Below, one piece after another: positions 1 through 12,879 of a stretch of DNA of 37,559 nucleotides; the stretch's first letter is position 1; each line of letters begins with the position of its first letter. Below the pieces are notes generated by a model, which was not told the DNA's origin, made no database searches, and was given only the letters and a program-made list of their open reading frames with translations. The stretch comes from Bacillota bacterium (GTDB taxonomy: Bacteria > Bacillota > Dethiobacteria > DTU022), in contig JAKPEE010000147.1 in assembly GCA_029552125.1 (NCBI GenBank), positions 1-37,559 of the forward strand. The letters are read 5' to 3'. Position numbers and translations under genes: made by a program.

Positions 1-20
1 TGTATAATCTTATCTGACAT
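1..20 (-). CDS. 5' end of a CDS running off the left edge (MSDKII...); possibly a corrinoid methyltransferase (MttB-like) from context only
   Basis: Minus-strand ATG at 18-20 preceded by a strong SD (AAAGGAGG) at the expected spacing, co-oriented with the pyl operon; only 6 codons visible. Confidence 0.55.
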
Positions 21-154
21 GGTACGTAACCTCCTTTGGTTGGTATTTTGTGTGCTAACTTAATTCTACCAAACGGTTACGTCCATGTCATTTTTATTGG
101 ACTTCTATGAATTTGCGAAAAATATTATACTTTATCCAAACCCCTCAGCGCCCA

Positions 155-1654
155 TCAGGCAGAAACCCTCCCTTCAGAGTAGAGTTTCGGGTCCAGCGGG
201 GGGCCAACAAAATTACCGATTAGATACGCCACCACCGACACGGGAACGGTCAGGTAAATCACCATCTCCGCCCACAGGTGAATGGTAGTTCCGAAAATGT
301 TCACTTCCCAGATAATGGTATCCCAACCGGGCACATGTTCGCCGAAGGCAAAAACTGCCGCTATATAAGCGATGGTGGTGATCAGGCCGGCCACAGCAGA
401 GAACGTGCCGCCCATAGCCGTCTTTTTAAATGGCCACAGGAAAGCCCCCATGATCGGGATTAACGCCACTGAAATAAGAATAGCCGCCTGCAGCAGCCAG
501 ACCAGCATAATTCGCGGGAAAATGAACATTAACCCGTAGGAGAGAGCAAAGGTAAATAAGATCATCACCCGGGTGAGAAGCAGTGTTCTGTTTTCAGACA
601 GATCAGGCTTAAAGATCTTTTGCACAATATCGTAGGAAAGATTGGCCGCCCCGACCAGGGTGTAGGAGTCCACCGTGGACATGATTCCGGCCATGGCTCC
701 GGCGATGAACAGGCCCGCCACACCCACGGGTAAGAAACTAAGGACGGTGGTAAATACGGCCTGATCCTGGGTGATGATAAAGCCGGGATACTTGGCCCAG
801 GCAACCAGCCCCAGGGAAACCAGGACCTTGTCGATGAACAGCCAGAGGATAATCATGGCCATAAAGGCCCTTACCGCGGTCTTATGATCCCTGGCGGCAA
901 AAAAACGCTGGTAGAAAACCGGCTCGACCAGTATCGTCAAAGCCGAGGCGGCATAAACCCCCAGAATCAACCAGGAGAGGTAGCCGCCCAGGGGCTCCAG
1001 GTGCCATTCGGGGTTCAAAGCTAAAATGTTGCTCCAGCCTCCATAGGAGAAGAGAGCGATGGGCAGGGCCACCACTACGCCAATAAACATCAGGCCGAAC
1101 TGCATCATGTCGGTAAAAGCCACAGCCCAGAGTCCCCCCAAAAGGGTATAGAAGACGGCGAATCCCCCCCCCACCAGGGCGCCCAGCCATAACGGCCAGC
1201 CCAGGACCACATGAAATACTACCCCTACAGCCATGAGCTGCATCACCGGTATGCAATAGAGGAAACTGCCGATAGCGCCAAAAAAACGGGTTAATTTACC
1301 GTAAAAACGACCCAGAACATCAGGTAAAGACAGCTCGCCGAGCAATCTAAGCCGGGTAATGAGAAAGAAGGTTAGAACAATTAAGAGGAAGTAGTATGGC
1401 GGGTAGTAGGCAACATCGGCCACAATACCTTCGGCATAGATAAATCCCGCGTCGGCGAAGAAAAACATGCCACAGTAGTAGGAAGCCATCAGGGTGCCGA
1501 CCAGCAAAGGCAGGGTTAAAGCTCTTCCGGCGATCAAATAATCTTCAAATTCGTTCACCCTGCGGTAGAACCAGATGCCCACGTAGAGCATGGCCACAAA
1601 GTAGAGGGCAACCAGCACCCAGTCTACGGGATGAAGTGAAACATTTTCCAACAT
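155..1654 (-). CDS. Sodium:solute symporter (SSS) family permease
   Basis: 499 aa, many hydrophobic TM segments, SSS-like motifs (GRALTLP, GGLWAVAFTDMMQF, AGIMSTVDS). Confidence 0.85.
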   Translation of the reverse strand: MLENVSLHPVDWVLVALYFVAMLYVGIWFYRRVNEFEDYLIAGRALTLPLLVGTLMASYYCGMFFFADAGFIYAEGIVADVAYYPPYYFLLIVLTFFLITRLRLLGELSLPDVLGRFYGKLTRFFGAIGSFLYCIPVMQLMAVGVVFHVVLGWPLWLGALVGGGFAVFYTLLGGLWAVAFTDMMQFGLMFIGVVVALPIALFSYGGWSNILALNPEWHLEPLGGYLSWLILGVYAASALTILVEPVFYQRFFAARDHKTAVRAFMAMIILWLFIDKVLVSLGLVAWAKYPGFIITQDQAVFTTVLSFLPVGVAGLFIAGAMAGIMSTVDSYTLVGAANLSYDIVQKIFKPDLSENRTLLLTRVMILFTFALSYGLMFIFPRIMLVWLLQAAILISVALIPIMGAFLWPFKKTAMGGTFSAVAGLITTIAYIAAVFAFGEHVPGWDTIIWEVNIFGTTIHLWAEMVIYLTVPVSVVAYLIGNFVGPPLDPKLYSEGRVSA

Positions 1655-1701
1655 ACATTCCTCCTTTCATTTTGTTCCCCGGGGACCATGTTCCGCTGCC
1701 T

Positions 1702-2895
1702 TTAAAGGTGAACGCCTCCCCCCTTTCCCGCGGTGACGGCAGCCCGGTCATCTATTTTTATATGTAAATCGTGTTGTTTTGCTATTGATTCAAGCATGTC
1801 ATCGTGCCTGCTCCAAAGTTCAGCCATGGAGTCACCGTAAAAGATCACGATCGCCACCCAGTCCGCCCCCCTGCCGTAATTGGTGAGAGCCACATCGGCG
1901 CCGAAGAAGTTCTCCACTAAGGCCAAAGGGCCCACCTTGGAAATGACCCGTTCCCCGAGGATCTCCAGGGTCTCCCCGGAAACCCTGATCTGTTCATAAA
2001 TCACCGCCTTAGGCCGCTTTGCGGGCTTTAGCGCCGGCAAAATACCACGGGCAAAAATATCATAGAGGGGTTCCAGCATGTTAATACCGGTCGAGTGGTA
2101 AACCGTTATTGGGGTCTGGCTGGGCAGCCTGGCATCAATTTCTAAGACCTTCCAGCCATCTTTACTGTTGATTGCCTCCAGGTCCATGATCCCGGTTAGA
2201 TTTAGGGCCCGCGCTGTTTTAAGGGTCAACTGTTTTAAATCTTCAGCCTGTTTTTCGCTAAGCTTTGCCGGGGCCACCACTCTTTTGCAGTCAAATGCTT
2301 CGTCAACATGGATCTCGGTGATCTGCAAAGTCTGAAACTTCTCCCCACACCCCAGGATCTCCAGGGAATAGCCATGCCCTTCCACGAATTCTTCCACGAT
2401 CCAGCGGTTATGCGTATCTTGCTTTAACCGGCTTAAAAGCTTATTCAACTCGCTGGCCGATTCTACCCTGGTTACACCGCTGCTGCCGCTTAAACCGGAG
2501 GGTTTTATGAGAACTGGGAAGCGGCAAGCGGGCCAGGGTTCAGGCAGGGGCAGCTCCAGGGAACGGAAAAGCTGATTAGATTTTTGTTTGCATGAAGATA
2601 CACGGTATGACGCCCTGTCATAGGCAAGGGGCACGCCTTCCTGGGCGGTAATTTCCTGGAGCAGATCAAGAACAACAGCATCTTCCAGGGCGGGGATCAC
2701 AAAATCACACTCTTTAATGATCTTCCGCCAGGCCGCTACATCGGTAAGAAAGTTGACCCGGAAAAAGCTATGCGCCAAACCGGCGGCAGGGACGGCGCCC
2801 TCTTTGTCCATCACCACTATCTCCCAGCCGGCCCTGCGGGCCAGGTAGGCGGCTTCAAGGCCTTGCAAGTTGCCTCCGGCTATCGCTACTCTCAT
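1702..2895 (-). CDS. pylC: Pyrrolysine biosynthesis ATP-grasp ligase PylC
   Basis: ATP-grasp protein starting MRVAIAGGNLQGLEAAYLARRAGW, in a cluster with pylB/pylD/pylS/tRNA-Pyl. Confidence 0.93.
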   Translation of the reverse strand: MRVAIAGGNLQGLEAAYLARRAGWEIVVMDKEGAVPAAGLAHSFFRVNFLTDVAAWRKIIKECDFVIPALEDAVVLDLLQEITAQEGVPLAYDRASYRVSSCKQKSNQLFRSLELPLPEPWPACRFPVLIKPSGLSGSSGVTRVESASELNKLLSRLKQDTHNRWIVEEFVEGHGYSLEILGCGEKFQTLQITEIHVDEAFDCKRVVAPAKLSEKQAEDLKQLTLKTARALNLTGIMDLEAINSKDGWKVLEIDARLPSQTPITVYHSTGINMLEPLYDIFARGILPALKPAKRPKAVIYEQIRVSGETLEILGERVISKVGPLALVENFFGADVALTNYGRGADWVAIVIFYGDSMAELWSRHDDMLESIAKQHDLHIKIDDRAAVTAGKGGGVHL

Positions 2896-2905
2896 GGCTC
2901 TCTCC

Positions 2906-3997
2906 TTAGCCTGTTTTCGGTAATCTTTCCCTACTCCGGGCCAGCCAGTTTACGTAATCTTCCGGCGCGGCCGCTTCCAGGCCAAGCCGGGCCAGTTCGA
3001 CCGAAACACTTTGCACGGTCCGGCAGCCCTCGTCGATATCCAGGGTGCTGTTGGAGACCCCCCTTAACCCGCTGCGGGGCGGTATCAGGGAGGTGACCAC
3101 GTTGGCCCCCGCCTCCAGCCTGGCTTTAAGGCCTGCCAGGCCGTCCACGTCCAGGGAGGCCGGGATCAGTTTCTGCGGATAAAGCAAACGCATCAGGGCG
3201 ATAATCTTCAATTCACGGCTGCGCGGCGGAGTCGGTAGATGGGCCAGGGGAGTATTGGCTTGGGGCACAAAGCTCATGACCCGCACCTGTTCCGCGCCCA
3301 GCTCTCCCATGACCCGCAAAGAATGAACGATATCCCGCAGGCTTTCCCCTACGCCGGTAAGGATACCCTCTTCGATTAAAAAGCCCAATTGGCGAGCATC
3401 CTTTTTCCGGCTTAAACGCAAGTCATAATCCTGCTGCGGGCGCAAACGCTGAAAAAGAGAGCGGTTATGGGTTTCCTGGTAACAGGCGTACCAATCCACT
3501 CCTTCTTCAGCCAGTAAGCGAAGCGCCTCCCTGGATACCGTTCCCGGGGAAATCATCAAGGGGAGGCCGGTGTTTTCTTTAATCAGGCGCACCAGCTCCA
3601 GAAGCCGCTGTTCACCGCTTTGATCCGTGCAATAAAAAGGGTCCTCCCCCATGGTCATATCGAGCAGGTGCACTCCCGCATCGCGCAGCCCGACAGCCGC
3701 ATTGACCAGTTCTGCCGCGGATTTGCGGTACCTGGCCAACCCGCTGTTTAAAGCCCTGTAGCCGCAAAACGAACAATTGTTGCGGCACCAGGTGGAAAAA
3801 TAAAGGAAGCCGTACAAAAACACTTTCCGGCCGAAATATCGTTCCCGCAAGGCACAGGCTGTGCTGAACAACATCGATAAAGCCAGAGGGTTTTCCAGGC
3901 CCAGGATAAAGAGTGCCTCTTCATCAGTTAAGGGTATTTCGGCCCCGGCCTTGTTGAGGCAGTTCTCCAGTTTAATCATGTCACCACCGGCAGGCAT
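2906..3997 (-). CDS. pylB: Methylornithine synthase PylB (radical SAM)
   Basis: Radical-SAM CxxxCxxC motif (STWCRNNCSFCGYR), cluster context. Confidence 0.94.
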   Translation of the reverse strand: MPAGGDMIKLENCLNKAGAEIPLTDEEALFILGLENPLALSMLFSTACALRERYFGRKVFLYGFLYFSTWCRNNCSFCGYRALNSGLARYRKSAAELVNAAVGLRDAGVHLLDMTMGEDPFYCTDQSGEQRLLELVRLIKENTGLPLMISPGTVSREALRLLAEEGVDWYACYQETHNRSLFQRLRPQQDYDLRLSRKKDARQLGFLIEEGILTGVGESLRDIVHSLRVMGELGAEQVRVMSFVPQANTPLAHLPTPPRSRELKIIALMRLLYPQKLIPASLDVDGLAGLKARLEAGANVVTSLIPPRSGLRGVSNSTLDIDEGCRTVQSVSVELARLGLEAAAPEDYVNWLARSRERLPKTG

Positions 3998-4028
3998 GCG
4001 CGGCTCACCTTCACCTTGCCTAAATTGC

Positions 4029-4682
4029 TTAACCTTTTGATTTAATAAGCTCAGAAATTACCTTAACGCCTTCGTTGGCGTCCTCGGCGTAGGCGTCGGC
4101 CCCGATTCTCCTGGCCCAGCGTTCGGTAACCGGTGCGCCGCCCACCACGGTTTTATACTTGTCGCGCAAGCCCCGGCGGCGCAGTTCGTCTTCCAGATCT
4201 TTCTGGGCGCCCATGGTAGTGGTCAGGAGGGCGCTGGTACCAATCACGTCGACCTGCAGCTCTTCAGCTTTCTCAATGATAGTGGCGATCGGCACATCCC
4301 GCCCGGCGTCATACACTTCGAACCCGTGCGCTTTAAGCAAAGAGACGACGATTCCTTTACCGATATCATGGAAATCTCCTTCCACGGTGGCGATGAGCAC
4401 TTTACCGGCCGAAGCCTTCTTTTCTGCGGTTATGGCGGCATTAAGCATACCGGTTACTTCTTTCATTACTTCGGCGCACTGGATCAGCTCGGGCAAAAAA
4501 AGCTCTCCCCGCTCGAAAAGATCGCCCACCTTATTCAAGCCGGCGATAAATCCTTTTTCAAGCATAACCATGGGATCGATCTGCCTGGCCAGCGCCATGC
4601 GGGCCACTTCTTGAGCCCTGGTTATATCTCCATCGACAATGGCGTCAGCAGCCTCCTGAAACAGAGCTTGATCATCATGCAT
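4029..4682 (-). CDS. Corrinoid (cobalamin-binding) methyltransferase protein, MttC/MtbC type
   Basis: B12-binding signature VEGDFHDIGKGIV plus N-terminal helical cap domain; 217 aa. Confidence 0.92.
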   Translation of the reverse strand: MHDDQALFQEAADAIVDGDITRAQEVARMALARQIDPMVMLEKGFIAGLNKVGDLFERGELFLPELIQCAEVMKEVTGMLNAAITAEKKASAGKVLIATVEGDFHDIGKGIVVSLLKAHGFEVYDAGRDVPIATIIEKAEELQVDVIGTSALLTTTMGAQKDLEDELRRRGLRDKYKTVVGGAPVTERWARRIGADAYAEDANEGVKVISELIKSKG

Positions 4683-4766
4683 CCTTTATCCCTTCCTCCT
4701 TCTTTCTTTACGCATACTTAATGTTGCCGGGGAATCAACCGGACCGCGGCCCGGCCCTTTTAAAAG

Positions 4767-5621
4767 CTAGAAATCGTAACCGGAAACCGCCGCAAAAAGC
4801 ATTGTGGCCACGCCAATTTCCAGGGCATCATGCACAAATCTGCCTTTTACCGCCTCCACGGCTTCCGGAGTAAGGCCGTGAGGCACACCGGGAGCAACGA
4901 TAAAGGTACCGGGACGTATATGCAACGGGGTGATTAAGTTTGCCGCCGGACAGGCATCCACCAGAAGGTCGTGGCCGGCTAAACCCTGTTCGAGATTTTT
5001 TTCAATTTTTGCAGCCAGGCCCAGCTTTAGCTTCAGTTCTCTCTGCAGTTCGCTGCTGCGCGGTGCGGCGGTATCAAAAAGGGCCGGCTCCGCGCCCATC
5101 CGGCCCAGGGCCAGGGCAGCCCCTCTGCCCACCCGGCCGCATCCAATGAGCAGCACTTTTCTACCGGCCACGCCCCCGGCGATGCAATCTAAGACAGTGG
5201 CAAAACCAAGGCCTGTAGCCGCGGCATTATCAACAATTTTGCCCGTAGTTCGATTGAGAACAATAAAACGGCTGTCGTCGGCCATCATAACCAGGGCAGT
5301 TTCTTTTTCCAGGGCTTCAGCCAGCCCCGCCACATCGGTGGCGGAAGTAATATAAGAGCTGAAGCCCAGGTAGGCGGCGATGCCCGCCACGGCACTGGAA
5401 AAGCCTTCGATAAGGCCTTGTCCCGCAGTCACCGGCACTGCCGCCACTACCAGATCATGAAGATCGCGCTGCACCAGCTCCGGCGCCTGCACCGCCCTGG
5501 CGCCAATCTGTTTCAACGATAAACCCGTATTTTGCTGTAAACTAAGATCGTAGGAGGCCAGATTGTGAAGCAACTCCCGGGTATAGTCTGGGCTTAACCT
5601 GGTCAACTGCCCGCCCTCCAC
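4767..5621 (-). CDS. pylD: Pyrrolysine biosynthesis dehydrogenase PylD
   Basis: Rossmann motif LLIGCGRVGRGAALALGRMG, PylD-like C-terminus; ends at TAG (4767-4769). Confidence 0.92.
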   Translation of the reverse strand: MEGGQLTRLSPDYTRELLHNLASYDLSLQQNTGLSLKQIGARAVQAPELVQRDLHDLVVAAVPVTAGQGLIEGFSSAVAGIAAYLGFSSYITSATDVAGLAEALEKETALVMMADDSRFIVLNRTTGKIVDNAAATGLGFATVLDCIAGGVAGRKVLLIGCGRVGRGAALALGRMGAEPALFDTAAPRSSELQRELKLKLGLAAKIEKNLEQGLAGHDLLVDACPAANLITPLHIRPGTFIVAPGVPHGLTPEAVEAVKGRFVHDALEIGVATMLFAAVSGYDF

Positions 5622-5708
5622 GCTAGAATTAGGTAAACTGCAAGGATATCAGCGCCCAACCTGCCGCTTTTTTACCGGTGCCTTCCTTTGGCGAGTCATT
5701 GGATCTGC

Positions 5709-6548
5709 TCAGATGTTTAAACGAACTCCATCCAGGTAGCTGAGGCTTTTCGCATAACTCTTGATATTGTTGCTTTTCCGGGCCGCCATGGCCAGCCGCT
5801 CCAGGCCAAAGCCCAATCCCACCCAGTTTTCCGTAATCCCCCACGGAATATCCAGGGGGTGCGGTCCCATGGCGCCTGATCCCAGTTCCAGCTCCCCGCA
5901 AACTACATCCACTGTCTCTCCATACACTTCGGAGCTTGCGGTAACCAGTTCATACCGAACGATCCCTGCTGTTTCTACTACCAGTGCGGCCAGCTCTTTC
6001 AGTCTCGACCATCTTTGCTCCAACGGCAAGCCCATTTCCACCAGATTTAACATGGTAAATTCGCTCAAGTGCTGCGCACCCCGGGATTCCTTTCGAAAAC
6101 AGCTTCCGATTTCAAAGATAGACACCGGTTTTTCCCAGAGACGTAAAAGATCCACCAGCAAATAGTAAAGATTCGGCGCCAGCATGGGGCGCAGGCTCTT
6201 ATTCTTACTGACCCAGTAAACCTGGTCGAAAAGCCGATGCTTTTCCGTAATGTTCATCCTGGCCAGCAGTCTCCGGGACATCATGATAGGAGTACTGACC
6301 TGGACAAAACCGGCCCGGGTTAGCGCGCTCACCAGCTCACTCTCCATCCTCGAAAGCAGCGGCCGTTTTGTCTCTTCCCTTAAGCGGCACAGTTGCTTTT
6401 TGGCTGCCGCCACTAGCTCTTTTTCCAGCTCCAGAAAACTACGGTTACGCTCCACCGTGCTGGAAAAGGTTTTATTGAGACAGTCTGCACCGGCCTCAAA
6501 AGCGGCCAATCTCTGCTTTTGGGCGTTTGTCCAGGTTATCTCCATCAC
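5709..6548 (-). CDS. pylSc: Pyrrolysyl-tRNA synthetase catalytic subunit PylSc
   Basis: Class II aaRS core (RPMLAPNLYYLL, FEIGSCFRKES, GLGFGLERLAM); GTG (6546-6548) or ATG (6543-6545) start with SD AGGTAGGAG. Confidence 0.96.
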   Translation of the reverse strand: MMEITWTNAQKQRLAAFEAGADCLNKTFSSTVERNRSFLELEKELVAAAKKQLCRLREETKRPLLSRMESELVSALTRAGFVQVSTPIMMSRRLLARMNITEKHRLFDQVYWVSKNKSLRPMLAPNLYYLLVDLLRLWEKPVSIFEIGSCFRKESRGAQHLSEFTMLNLVEMGLPLEQRWSRLKELAALVVETAGIVRYELVTASSEVYGETVDVVCGELELGSGAMGPHPLDIPWGITENWVGLGFGLERLAMAARKSNNIKSYAKSLSYLDGVRLNI

Positions 6549-6563
6549 TGGCTCCTACCTTTT

Positions 6564-6635
6564 TGGCGAGGAGTCCGGGAGTTTCACCCGGCTGCACCGA
6601 TTTAGAGTCGGCGCGATCTTTCCGATCCACCCCCC
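6564..6635 (-). tRNA. pylT: tRNA-Pyl (anticodon CUA)
   Basis: Minus strand GGGGGGTGGATCGGAAAGATCGCGCCGACTCTAAATCGGTGCAGCCGGGTGAAACTCCCGGACTCCTCGCCA: 7-bp acceptor (with G-U), 6-bp anticodon stem CGCCGA/TCGGTG, loop CTCTAAA with CUA, encoded CCA. Confidence 0.96.
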
Positions 6636-6680
6636 GGATAAATCAAGAACCCTGATCGCAATACTCCTGTGCAAGCCTGT

Positions 6681-7076
6681 CTATTTAAATTCCTCCACTG
6701 TATTAGCCGGCACCTCCGGCCCGGATTCATGCAGCAGGGAACCCCAGCCACGCTTAAAATATGTAGCGGCGTATTTCTCCACTTTCCAGGCCGGAATACC
6801 GCACTTTGGACACACCTCGCGGTACCACTTGTTACGCAGCCAGCGGGAAGCCCGGCTATTACGGGAATCATGAATAATAAAAGTTTCCCGGCAGTGAGTG
6901 GTAATTTCCATCAGGTTTCCCTGAATATTAATCGTTTTTATACCGTGCAGTATCCCTTTCCGGGAAGGCCAGAGCTTGATTTTTTGCACCAGTCTGGCTG
7001 TATTTACCCTTTTCCGGTAATATATTTTTTTTACCTCTTTTACCTTTGGCTGGTCGCCGGTTACCGCTTGTTCCAT
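6681..7076 (-). CDS. pylSn: Pyrrolysyl-tRNA synthetase tRNA-binding subunit PylSn
   Basis: 131 aa basic protein with PylSn-like His/Cys zinc-site arrangement (..VCPKCGIPAWKVEKYAATYFKRGWG), immediately upstream of pylT; ends at TAG. Confidence 0.9.
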   Translation of the reverse strand: MEQAVTGDQPKVKEVKKIYYRKRVNTARLVQKIKLWPSRKGILHGIKTINIQGNLMEITTHCRETFIIHDSRNSRASRWLRNKWYREVCPKCGIPAWKVEKYAATYFKRGWGSLLHESGPEVPANTVEEFK

Positions 7077-7139
7077 TCGCTAACCCCCGTTAGCATACTG
7101 CCCGGCTGAAAACTCTGGCATTTGACAATAATACTAACA

Positions 7140-7154
7140 GCAATAAATATGCCA
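7140..7154 (-). promoter_or_regulatory. sigma54 (RpoN) -24/-12 promoter of the pyl operon
   Basis: Minus strand TGGCATATTTATTGC versus consensus TGGCAC-N5-TTGC; 64 bp upstream of pylSn. Confidence 0.85.
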
Positions 7155-7227
7155 AGATGGATGATGTCTTTTTTTTGAGCAAAGCCCTTCTATATAACAC
7201 TTCTCCGGGAAAAGCTGTAGAGGTTGC

Positions 7228-7245
7228 TGTCTTATGGTTAAGACA
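7228..7245. promoter_or_regulatory. Palindrome TGTCTTA-TGGT-TAAGACA, candidate enhancer-binding site
   Basis: Perfect 7-bp arms, upstream of the sigma54 promoter. Confidence 0.55.
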
Positions 7246-7265
7246 TAGTGGGTGGACAAATGGCA

Positions 7266-7311
7266 AAGGGTGAGACGAAAAACGTTGAATATCAGCTTTT
7301 GTCTCACCCTT
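7266..7311. repeat. 11-bp perfect inverted repeat AAGGGTGAGAC...GTCTCACCCTT, candidate upstream activating sequence
   Basis: Arms 7266-7276 and 7301-7311; no U-tract on either strand; related half-sites upstream of the regulator gene. Confidence 0.5.
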
Positions 7312-7359
7312 GATACAAATTGAAGGTTTTTCACATTATTTAGACACTTTTATATTGTT

Positions 7360-9048
7360 TTAATCCTTGATTCCCAGTTCGGAAATCTTCCGGTAGAGGG
7401 TAGCTCTACTGATACCCAGCGCCCGGGCGATATTGTTTTTAGCTTTTGATGAAGTACCAAAACGTTTTAAATGATCCTTGATCACACTGCGCTCGTAATT
7501 GAGAAGCATCGTTTTTAAACAAGAGCTGTTTTCGGAAGGTTCTTCAGTATGCATACAGAGCCGGGGAGGGAGGCAGCTTATACTTAAGATCCTGCCGGCG
7601 CACATGTTCACAGCATATTCCAGAACATTTTCCAGTTCCCTGACGTTTCCCGGCCAGTCATAGCTGAGGAACCTTTCCATTACCTCTGCCGATATGGACA
7701 TATGGGGCCTTTTTAACTTCACCGCCAGGACTTTAAGATAATGCTCTGCCAGCAGCGGTATATCTTCCTTCCGTTCTTTAAGAGGGGGGATATGCAGGGG
7801 AATGACCCCTAACCGAAAATAAAGGTCTTTCCGAAATTTTCTTTCCTGCATCATTTTGTCCAGGTCACGGTTGGAAGCGGCAATTATTCTCACATCAACG
7901 GGTATCTTTTTTGATCCTCCCACCCTTTCCACTTCTCGGTTCTGCAACACGTGCAGCAGCTTAACCTGCAGGTGCAGCGGCATTTCGCCAATTTCGTCAA
8001 GAAAAATAGTGCCTTTATCGGCCAGCTCAAATTTTCCGGTTTTCCCTTCCTTTAAAGCACCGGTAAATGCGCCCCCTTCATACCCGAAGAGTTCGCTTTC
8101 CAGTAAATTCTCCGGAATAGCCCCGCAATTTACACTGATAAAAGGGCCGTCGGCGCGGTGGCTGGCATTGTGAATAGCCCGGGCAAAAACTTCTTTACCG
8201 GTCCCACTTTCACCGGTAATCAGCACAGTTGAATTGGTATCGGCTACTCTCAAGGCCATCTCCTTAACCCGCTGGATGGCATAACTGTTGCCGATAATAT
8301 CATCAAAGGTATATTCCAGGCTGGTTTCACTCAAATCATAAATGAGGCGGCGCGCTTCAGCGATATCCCGGAAAGAGATTACCGCACCGCCGGGCCTTCC
8401 TGAACCGGTAATCAGGCGCAGGGTGACAATAAAATGCATCCACCGCTCACCGGAATGATATATTTCTTCCTTTTCCGTATATTCCTGTCCCTTAGCCATA
8501 GCTTGCAGGGCAGGGGTCTGGGGCCATAGTTCATGCAGCGGGATGCCAATAATTTCGCTGCGATTTGCTTTTAGCAGTTTTTCCGCCGTGGCATTACAGT
8601 AGGTGACGACACCGGAAGAGTTTATGACCAGCGCTCCCTCATGAATAGTCTCCAGAATGACAGCCAGCTCTTCACGCCGCAAAGAAGCCTCCCTTTCCGT
8701 GATGGCGGCTGCTAAAAGATGGCTCATCCGGTTCACAAATTCCTCAACCTGTTGAAGGGGCGGCTGCAGCCCGGATGGAGAAGCAAAAACGGCAATCCAT
8801 CCCCAGACGCGGCCTCCCGTAACGATAGGGCTGCAATAATCTCCCAGCCTGCAGCGATCACCGCTTAATTGCGCCCTTTTCTCTTTTTGCCCTGCTTTTA
8901 ACCGGCTAGCCCCCGTCCCACCGATAATGTTTAACTCATGATCAATGATTTCCACCTCGACATTAAGGGCAAAAGAAATGGCTTCAGCAGCTTCCTGGAC
9001 TATTTCTAGATAAGGTGCCAGATTGGACATAAATTCCACTCCTTGCAC
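7360..9048 (-). CDS. sigma54-dependent transcriptional activator (sensor region, PAS, AAA+, Fis-type HTH)
   Basis: [30 protein letters not shown] (GAFTGA loop), [17 protein letters not shown]-terminal Fis-like [21 protein letters not shown]. Confidence 0.97.
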
Positions 9049-9321
9049 GGCTGTTATTTTTCCCTGACGATTTGTTTATCTTTTCTTTGAATTTATAGTA
9101 TATCATGAAAAGGAGCTGTTGTCTCACTATTAAAACAAATGTTTTGAGCAGAATCTATCCACCGTAATTGACTGAGACACTATCGATTCCATTAGTTTCG
9201 AGTAAAACCTCCCGGCAATGAAAAAGTGGCAATTACTAGTTAATTTACTTTATTGATGACAGTTTTCTGTTAGGTTTATAATACTATTACATAAGACTAT
9301 CTTTACAAAGAGGGTATTGCT

Positions 9322-9546
9322 ATGAAGTCTAAGCTGGTTGCTTATATCGAAAAAGACGTTGAGTCGGGATCGTATGTAGCTTTCGTTCCAGGAATCCCAG
9401 GGGCTCATACTCAGGCCGACACACTGGATGAACTTCAAGTTAAGTTAAAGGAAGTAATTGAACTTTGTCTGGAAGAAATGGATCCTGAAGAAAGAAAGAA
9501 TTTACCTCAATTTGTTGGGATCCAGCAAATTGAAGTAGCAGTATGA
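9322..9546 (+). CDS. hicB: HicB-family antitoxin
   Basis: 74 aa HicB fold motif (YIEKDVESGSYVAFVPGIPGAHTQADTLDEL). Confidence 0.85.
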   Translation: MKSKLVAYIEKDVESGSYVAFVPGIPGAHTQADTLDELQVKLKEVIELCLEEMDPEERKNLPQFVGIQQIEVAV

Positions 9547-12054: not shown

Positions 12055-12879
12055 CTAGTCCTGAAAGATGCGGATGTCGACGCTCCCGCTCCAGTTCGAT
12101 GTTTTAATCATGATCAGATGATCCGTATTATTTCTGAATTTAAAATCAAGATAATCGGACACGGTGGCGTCCCTCCCCGGCGGAACATAGTAAACCGGCA
12201 CACTGTGCGGGTAACGCTCCACAACTTCCAGGCCGGCCTCCAGGACGGCATTGTAAAGGGTAGAGGAAACCTGGCATACGCCCCCGCCTATGCCCATGCC
12301 GCCGACCACCGGCGCCAGGCGATAGCCTCTTTCAAACGTCCGCGGCCCATTGGCCCGGTTAAAAGAAAACAGTTCTCCCGGCATCAGGACATAATTGTTT
12401 AAGGAGGCAGTAGCCAGGTGAATGTTCGTGGCCCTGCCGCCGTTGCCTGCGCCGATCCAGGTCCGGTAAGCCCCGATCTCCCTGTTGATGCGCTGGTAGT
12501 GCCGAAAGGTCACTGCCGGATCCAGTTGCACCAATTCCAAAAGGACCATGCTATGAGCCGGGGCGGCCATGACATTTTCTACGGTCGCCGCTACATTAAC
12601 CTGCCTGCCCGGGACTTCGGCTACCAGCTCCCCCGTGGCCATATCAAGGTAAGCGTTGCGCGGCATACAGTTTATATCCCTGGCCAGATCCCGGACCAGC
12701 GCTTCCACTTCGTTACGGCGCATCCCCTCCACCAGGATGCCTTCAATGGTAACGCCGGGATTAACCGTTTTACGCCAGGGTTCCAGCAGGCCGATTCCCC
12801 GGGCTGCCAGGATGATGCCGGTGATCAATATGGCGGCAATGGCCGCAGCAAGCCTTTTTTTCCGGCCGGCAACATTCAT
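12055..12879 (-). CDS. VanW family protein
   Basis: VanW motifs NGPRTFERGYRLAPVVGGMGIGGGVCQVSSTLYNAVLEAGLEVVERYPHS; upstream start at 13008 possible. Confidence 0.9.
   Translation of the reverse strand: MNVAGRKKRLAAAIAAILITGIILAARGIGLLEPWRKTVNPGVTIEGILVEGMRRNEVEALVRDLARDINCMPRNAYLDMATGELVAEVPGRQVNVAATVENVMAAPAHSMVLLELVQLDPAVTFRHYQRINREIGAYRTWIGAGNGGRATNIHLATASLNNYVLMPGELFSFNRANGPRTFERGYRLAPVVGGMGIGGGVCQVSSTLYNAVLEAGLEVVERYPHSVPVYYVPPGRDATVSDYLDFKFRNNTDHLIMIKTSNWSGSVDIRIFQD

Follow-up and report, generated by a model that had tools for sequence, protein, structure and literature searches.

A pyrrolysine cassette with a sigma-54 promoter in a Bacillota genome, predicted front half of a methylamine operon and apparently one of two diverged pyl sets

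How would a bacterial pyrrolysine (pyl) cassette be switched on, and what does it belong to, when its genes stand in an order that departs from the usual one? The question is raised by a 37,559-nucleotide stretch of DNA (contig JAKPEE010000147.1; hereafter designated the window), which is the entire contig C104 of a metagenome-assembled genome (MAG) of a Bacillota bacterium (GCA_029552125.1, here G000; 2.56 Mb, completeness 87%, contamination 3.7%). A preliminary description had reported a complete cassette of unusual gene order in it, and all the features that it named were found on the minus strand, at the positions collected in Table 1. We consider it probable that the locus is a functional pyrrolysine module induced through sigma-54 and an enhancer-binding protein (EBP), which forms the first half of an inducible operon for methylamine use and is one of two pyl sets in the genome.

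The five Pyl proteins and a corrinoid protein were assigned with NCBIfam profiles, all scores exceeding the curated cut-offs; the solved structures closest to the five are likewise PylSc, PylSn, PylB, PylC, and PylD. The pocket columns of PylSc (RPMLAPNLY, EFTMLN, VYG, and WVG) are conserved, and the pylB product contains CxxxCxxC. For the predicted tRNA-Pyl, a covariance model was purpose-built, because an Rfam search of the region gave no family match to this atypical tRNA, even at E ≤ 1. The model was made from 29 bacterial tRNA-Pyl sequences, leaving out the window clade and the second copy of the genome. The window tRNA, which carries the anticodon CUA and G73, matched this model from other species with 92.6 bits (E ~4e-22), in agreement with ARAGORN, and exactly two strong matches were found in the whole genome. 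Thus, both the complete cassette and the tRNA-Pyl claimed in the preliminary description were borne out. A G2:U71 acceptor pair, considered as a separate identity mark of this tRNA, was discarded, being absent in the clade relatives and present also in Desulfosporosinus tRNAs.

A second pyl set lies on contig C134 (locus L067, 537-11108), in the order EBP–mttB(TAG)–mtbB(TAG)–corrinoid–pylT–pylSc–pylB–pylC–pylD–pylSn, with one TAG each in mttB and mtbB. Its PylSc is 62% identical to the window PylSc, and its tRNA-Pyl differs from that of the window at about nine positions. In five quick trees, the Pyl proteins of C134 cluster with those of loci L094, L141, and L158, and the window proteins with those of L076, L077, and L157 (from genomes G026, G017, and G018, respectively, the first being of the same genus as the window genome). 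These comparisons suggest that the genome has two complete pyl sets, which separated long ago and of which the window set is one. The preliminary description had recognized the cassette itself and missed this second set, as well as the further course of the operon on a different contig and the sigma-54 control, both given below. Because the non-pyl flanks of both C104 and C134 match the genus-mate G026 at 87–91% identity, a level well beyond that seen with other genera, the two contigs are not distant contaminants, and contamination from a distant organism was ruled out as their source. Two pylSc loci also occur in each of the cultured strains Sporomusa malonica, S. acidovorans, Sporomusa sp. 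KB1, and Desulfosporosinus nitroreducens, where the paired loci fall into different tree clades. Separately, in two Desulfosporosinus loci (L111 and L133) we observed a second pylT accompanied by pylB, pylC, and pylD, oriented opposite to the complete set.

The promoter region of the window cassette points to sigma-54 control. Sigma-54 elements of the kind found upstream of pylSn in the window also precede pylSn in L077, L156, and L157, and on C134 they precede mttB and mtbB. The upstream dyad has no other match in the 2.56-Mb genome, while its pattern is matched exactly in L157 and nearly in L156 and L077 (before pylSn); with up to two mismatches allowed, the window contains 4 matches versus 0.56 expected. 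One of these precedes the EBP gene, which may be autoregulated through it. Over all loci, the strict sigma-54 motif was found 93 times, as against 3–10 times for reversed, swapped, or respaced controls, and 57 sites lie upstream of annotated genes. Moreover, of 88 distinct sequences upstream of pylT, 22 had a perfect motif at a distance of no more than 200 bp, mostly 17–48 bp from the tRNA, versus 0 for six control motifs. Since such promoters stand directly before pylT, transcription of the tRNA by sigma-54 RNA polymerase is implied. Loci with a perfect promoter 17–48 bp upstream of pylT include L161, L078, L103, and L140, among others, in many Bacillota. The genome also encodes RpoN (rpoN); a −24/−12 promoter, rpoN, an EBP gene, and an upstream dyad are all present at the sequence level. 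The EBP, probably the activator of the window pyl operon, is PrdR-like with a score under the cut-off of the PrdR model.

The window does not begin with operon sequence; positions 1-136 are the right end of a multi-copy insertion sequence (IS), whose core, TTTTTCGCAAATTCAT, occurs 26 times in the genome, always near contig ends, as seen on comparing the end structure over the 26 copies. On contig C150 (locus L068), the IS left end is preceded by the 8-bp sequence CAAACCCC, and in the window the right end is followed by CAAACCCC. When the IS and one repeat copy are taken out, the stop codon of the symporter gene overlaps an ATG (TGATG), from which the frame runs into a 166-residue open reading frame (ORF) of C150. 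Beyond this ORF, C150 encodes proteins of 443 and 226 residues and then a TAG-containing mttB (TIGR02369, 707 bits). Next come an mttB homologue that is free of Pyl, a gene for a corrinoid protein, a TAG-containing mtbB (TIGR02368, 526 bits), and one more mttB homologue; mttB and mtbB have one TAG codon each. In G018 (L157), homologues of the symporter gene and of the 166- and 443-residue ORFs are consecutive on one contig, and in G026 a sequence matching C150 lies ~1.2 kb from one matching window position 12066. Because the 8-bp duplication matches, the frame resumes across it, and the gene order agrees in relatives, the C104 cassette appears to be joined to C150 and to make up the first half of a longer operon for methylamine use. 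The pyl genes and their UAG-containing clients would then constitute one operon-like island, now split by the IS. On both C134 and C150, the methylamine methyltransferase genes mttB and mtbB contain in-frame UAG codons. The three genes between the symporter gene and mttB (L068:13153-15745) gave no Pfam or NCBIfam match.

Table 1. Positions of the features of the pyl locus and its surroundings in the window
Feature	Position	Strand	Evidence or remark
IS element, right end, multi-copy	1..136		contig stops there; inverted-repeat core 107-122
8-bp target-site duplication CAAACCCC	137..144		same 8 bp before IS left end on C150
Start (MGAEGF..) of small membrane-type protein gene split by IS	137..155	-	remainder on C150, L068:15245-15745
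Putative sodium:solute symporter (SSF)	155..1654	-	PF00474 SSF, superfamily-level match only
pylC, 3-methylornithine--L-lysine ligase	1702..2895	-	TIGR03909 399 bits (cut-off 248); PDB 4ffl PylC E=3e-49
pylB, methylornithine synthase, radical SAM	2906..3997	-	TIGR03910 476 bits (cut-off 348); PDB 3t7v PylB E=3e-86
Corrinoid protein, methyltransferase-cognate, MttC/MtbC type	4029..4682	-	TIGR02370 221 bits (cut-off 215)
pylD, 3-methylornithyl-N6-lysine dehydrogenase	4767..5621	-	TIGR03911 234 bits (cut-off 150); PF21455 PylD_N; PDB 4q39 PylD
pylSc, catalytic half of pyrrolysyl-tRNA synthetase	5709..6548	-	TIGR02367 336 bits (cut-off 178); closest solved chain 3dsq, E=7e-94
pylT, tRNA-Pyl(CUA), CCA encoded	6564-6635	-	ARAGORN; cloverleaf fold; covariance model 92.6 bits
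pylSn, tRNA-binding half of pyrrolysyl-tRNA synthetase	6681..7076	-	TIGR03912 121 bits (cut-off 51); PDB 5ud5 E=3e-9
Perfect sigma-54 promoter TGGCATATTTATTGCT	7154-7139	-	only strict site in window; upstream of pylSn
Upstream activating dyad TGTCTTATGGTTAAGACA (TGTCTTA-TGGT-TAAGACA), predicted EBP site	7228..7245		~75 bp upstream of -24 element
Second dyad-like site	7300..7317		one mismatch
Sigma-54 EBP: N-terminal region, PAS, AAA+, HTH	7360..9048	-	PF00158 Sigma54_activat 247 bits, PAS, HTH_8
Dyad-like site upstream of EBP gene	9120..9137		one mismatch

The EBP and the symporter gave matches at the superfamily level only (PF00158 and PF00474). Homologues of the symporter, 72–74% identical, were found among the collected loci only in L157 and L077. 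A small HicB-like antitoxin ORF lies on the plus strand (9322-9546), upstream of the EBP gene. The possibility that a tRNA-Arg had served for integration and left its 3' end repeated was dismissed, no copy of that end being found in the window.

Gene content and order, contig linkage, the promoter motif and its dyad, the two tRNA genes, and the separation into clades are direct observations on the sequence, and they are consistent with the following scheme. A methylamine would be sensed, either directly or via a metabolite, whereupon the adjacent EBP would bind the TGTCTYA-N4-TRAGACA dyads and activate sigma-54 RNA polymerase at the −24/−12 promoter before pylSn. A single transcript would give PylSn and PylSc, tRNA-Pyl (excised from that transcript), PylB, PylC, PylD, the corrinoid protein, and the sodium symporter serving uptake, and before the IS insertion it would have run on to the UAG-containing mttB and mtbB, encoding the trimethylamine and dimethylamine methyltransferases. 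Pyrrolysine would be made from lysine by PylB, PylC, and PylD and loaded onto tRNA-Pyl by PylSn and PylSc, and the UAG codons of mttB and mtbB would be decoded with it. Those parts of the scheme that we infer are the inducer, the binding of the EBP, expression, charging, and pyrrolysine insertion. The C134 set has its own EBP, sigma-54 promoters, mttB, and mtbB. Some points weigh against this assignment. Since the genome is a MAG with the completeness and contamination given above, the contig linkage and the claim of two sets depend on the assembly. The EBP gene is not beside the pyl genes in L077, L156, or L157, so that the pairing of EBP and dyad rests on their proximity and on the shared dyad. 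In addition, the IS between the symporter and the methyltransferase genes would be polar, and therefore the two halves may not be co-transcribed in this strain.

The order of the genes in the window, Sn–T–Sc–D–corrinoid–B–C–symporter, was compared with those of about 100 bacterial pylSc loci, 56 of which have all six genes. As described preliminarily, pylT lies between the two synthetase halves (Table 1), and the usual layout has pylSn last: T–Sc–B–C–D–Sn accounts for 33 of the 56 complete loci, and bacterial layouts have been summarized as 'generally pylTScBCDSn or pylSnScBCD', sometimes interrupted (PMC3941956). In the C134 set pylSn is distal; in the window it is not. The window order is uncommon without being unique, since two other genomes share it completely (L077 and L157) and one as far as its contig end (Sn–T–Sc–D–cor–B in L076); in L157, corrinoid-like DNA is present and an intact ORF passing the profile was not found. 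The insertion of a corrinoid gene between pylD and pylB is likewise real and not peculiar to the window, corrinoid genes also occurring inside other cassettes, for example, L104 and L108. In the PylSc tree, the window forms one clade with L076, L077, and L157 (SH-aLRT 97), and separate quick trees of PylB, PylC, PylD, and PylSn agree with it. The order Sn–T–Sc was also seen in L160, outside this clade. Because the same-order relatives form one clade across the trees, the layout is a conserved clade signature; because bacterial pyl order is very variable and the same order occurs in relatives, the order alone appears modestly novel.

It might be argued that the window holds an ordinary pyl cassette with a shuffled order and that its counterpart on C134 stems from assembly noise or from a contaminating contig, given the variability just described (13 distinct complete orders) and a MAG that is incomplete and has 3.7% estimated contamination. 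The flank identities to G026 on both contigs, the differences between the two tRNAs and in all five proteins, which belong to different clades, and the paired pylSc loci of cultured Sporomusa and Desulfosporosinus speak against this explanation, which we regard as very unlikely. The redundancy could also be in passing, with the window set horizontally acquired and now being lost, the IS being the first damage. Indeed, the IS interrupts the operon, and cassette and core identities are discordant: core DNA is ~88% identical between G000 and G026, and core segments ~70% between G000 and G018, whereas the same-layout pyl cassettes of G000 are 64–73% identical to those of G026, G017, and G018 in aligned blocks (66–68% to G026 over longer aligned blocks), and between G026 and G018 the cassettes agree at 90% of positions. 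Because the cassette identities run counter to the core identities, horizontal transfer of whole cassettes would be their simplest reading, a misbinned contig in G026 (estimated contamination 7%) being a possible alternative. However, the pyl genes, tRNA, promoter, and dyad of the window are all intact, with no frameshift seen in the cassette, and ongoing loss is in our judgment unlikely.

The relation between the two synthetase halves and between the two sets allows further alternatives. PylSn and PylSc could be made as one fused pyrrolysyl-tRNA synthetase (PylRS) through UAG read-through across the tRNA gene; the stop codon of pylSn is TAG, and if TAG means pyrrolysine, the frame runs on unbroken between 7076 and 5709, where it meets only two TAG codons. 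Relatives do not share this arrangement, as the pylSn stop is TAA in L076 and no other surveyed locus has PylSn and PylSc in a single TAG-read-through frame; moreover, pylSc has its own ribosome-binding site directly after pylT, and an mRNA from which the tRNA is excised would be severed. The amber read-through fusion was accordingly rejected as scarcely credible. Alternatively, the two sets may be separately switched modules, each answering to a sigma-54 activator of its own and serving only its own methyltransferases, with a division of function or even mutual orthogonality between them, a reading that we hold to be distinctly unlikely. In Candidatus Methanohalarchaeum thermophilum HMET1, which has two PylRS/tRNA-Pyl pairs (PMC9071458), orthogonality is marked by differences in the discriminator base and in the length of the motif 2 loop; here, in contrast, G73 is common to both tRNAs, and the alignment of the two PylSc shows no gap around motif 2. 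Because this type of orthogonality has no sign in the sequence, cross-charging between the two pairs seems more likely than their separation.

Collectively, the sigma-54 promoter before the pyl operon would provide a concrete switch for turning on the 22nd amino acid when needed, a switch that in many Bacillota stands directly before the tRNA gene; some of the loci also have an activator gene close by. Two diverged Pyl sets per bacterial genome also offer natural split PylRS/tRNA pairs for cross-charging tests and may be useful for genetic code expansion. In the literature searched, largely outside the subscription journals, nothing relevant tied pyrrolysine or mttB to sigma-54 or an EBP, apart from a prediction of sigma-54 control of MttB in Clostridia in which pyrrolysine is not mentioned (PMC12316311). 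The parts are known; as far as this literature goes, neither the duplication nor the control by sigma-54 seems to have been reported. The window resembles that Clostridial case in the predicted sigma-54 regulation of trimethylamine methyltransferase genes and differs from it in that the pyl genes and the tRNA gene themselves bear the promoter. With the pylTScBCDSn cassette of the Desulfitobacterium hafniense type, it shares the split PylRS, tRNA-Pyl(CUA), PylB, PylC, and PylD, and the link to methylamine methyltransferases and corrinoid proteins; unlike that type, it has the order Sn–T–Sc–D–corrinoid–B–C–SSF with pylT between the synthetase halves, contains SSF and unassigned genes in the operon, and coexists with a set of the usual order. 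Methanomassiliicoccus luminyensis also carries two complete pyl clusters in one genome (PMC3941956), but these represent an archaeal lineage-specific duplication of identical organization, whereas the present genome is that of a bacterium with two apparently anciently diverged sets of different layouts.

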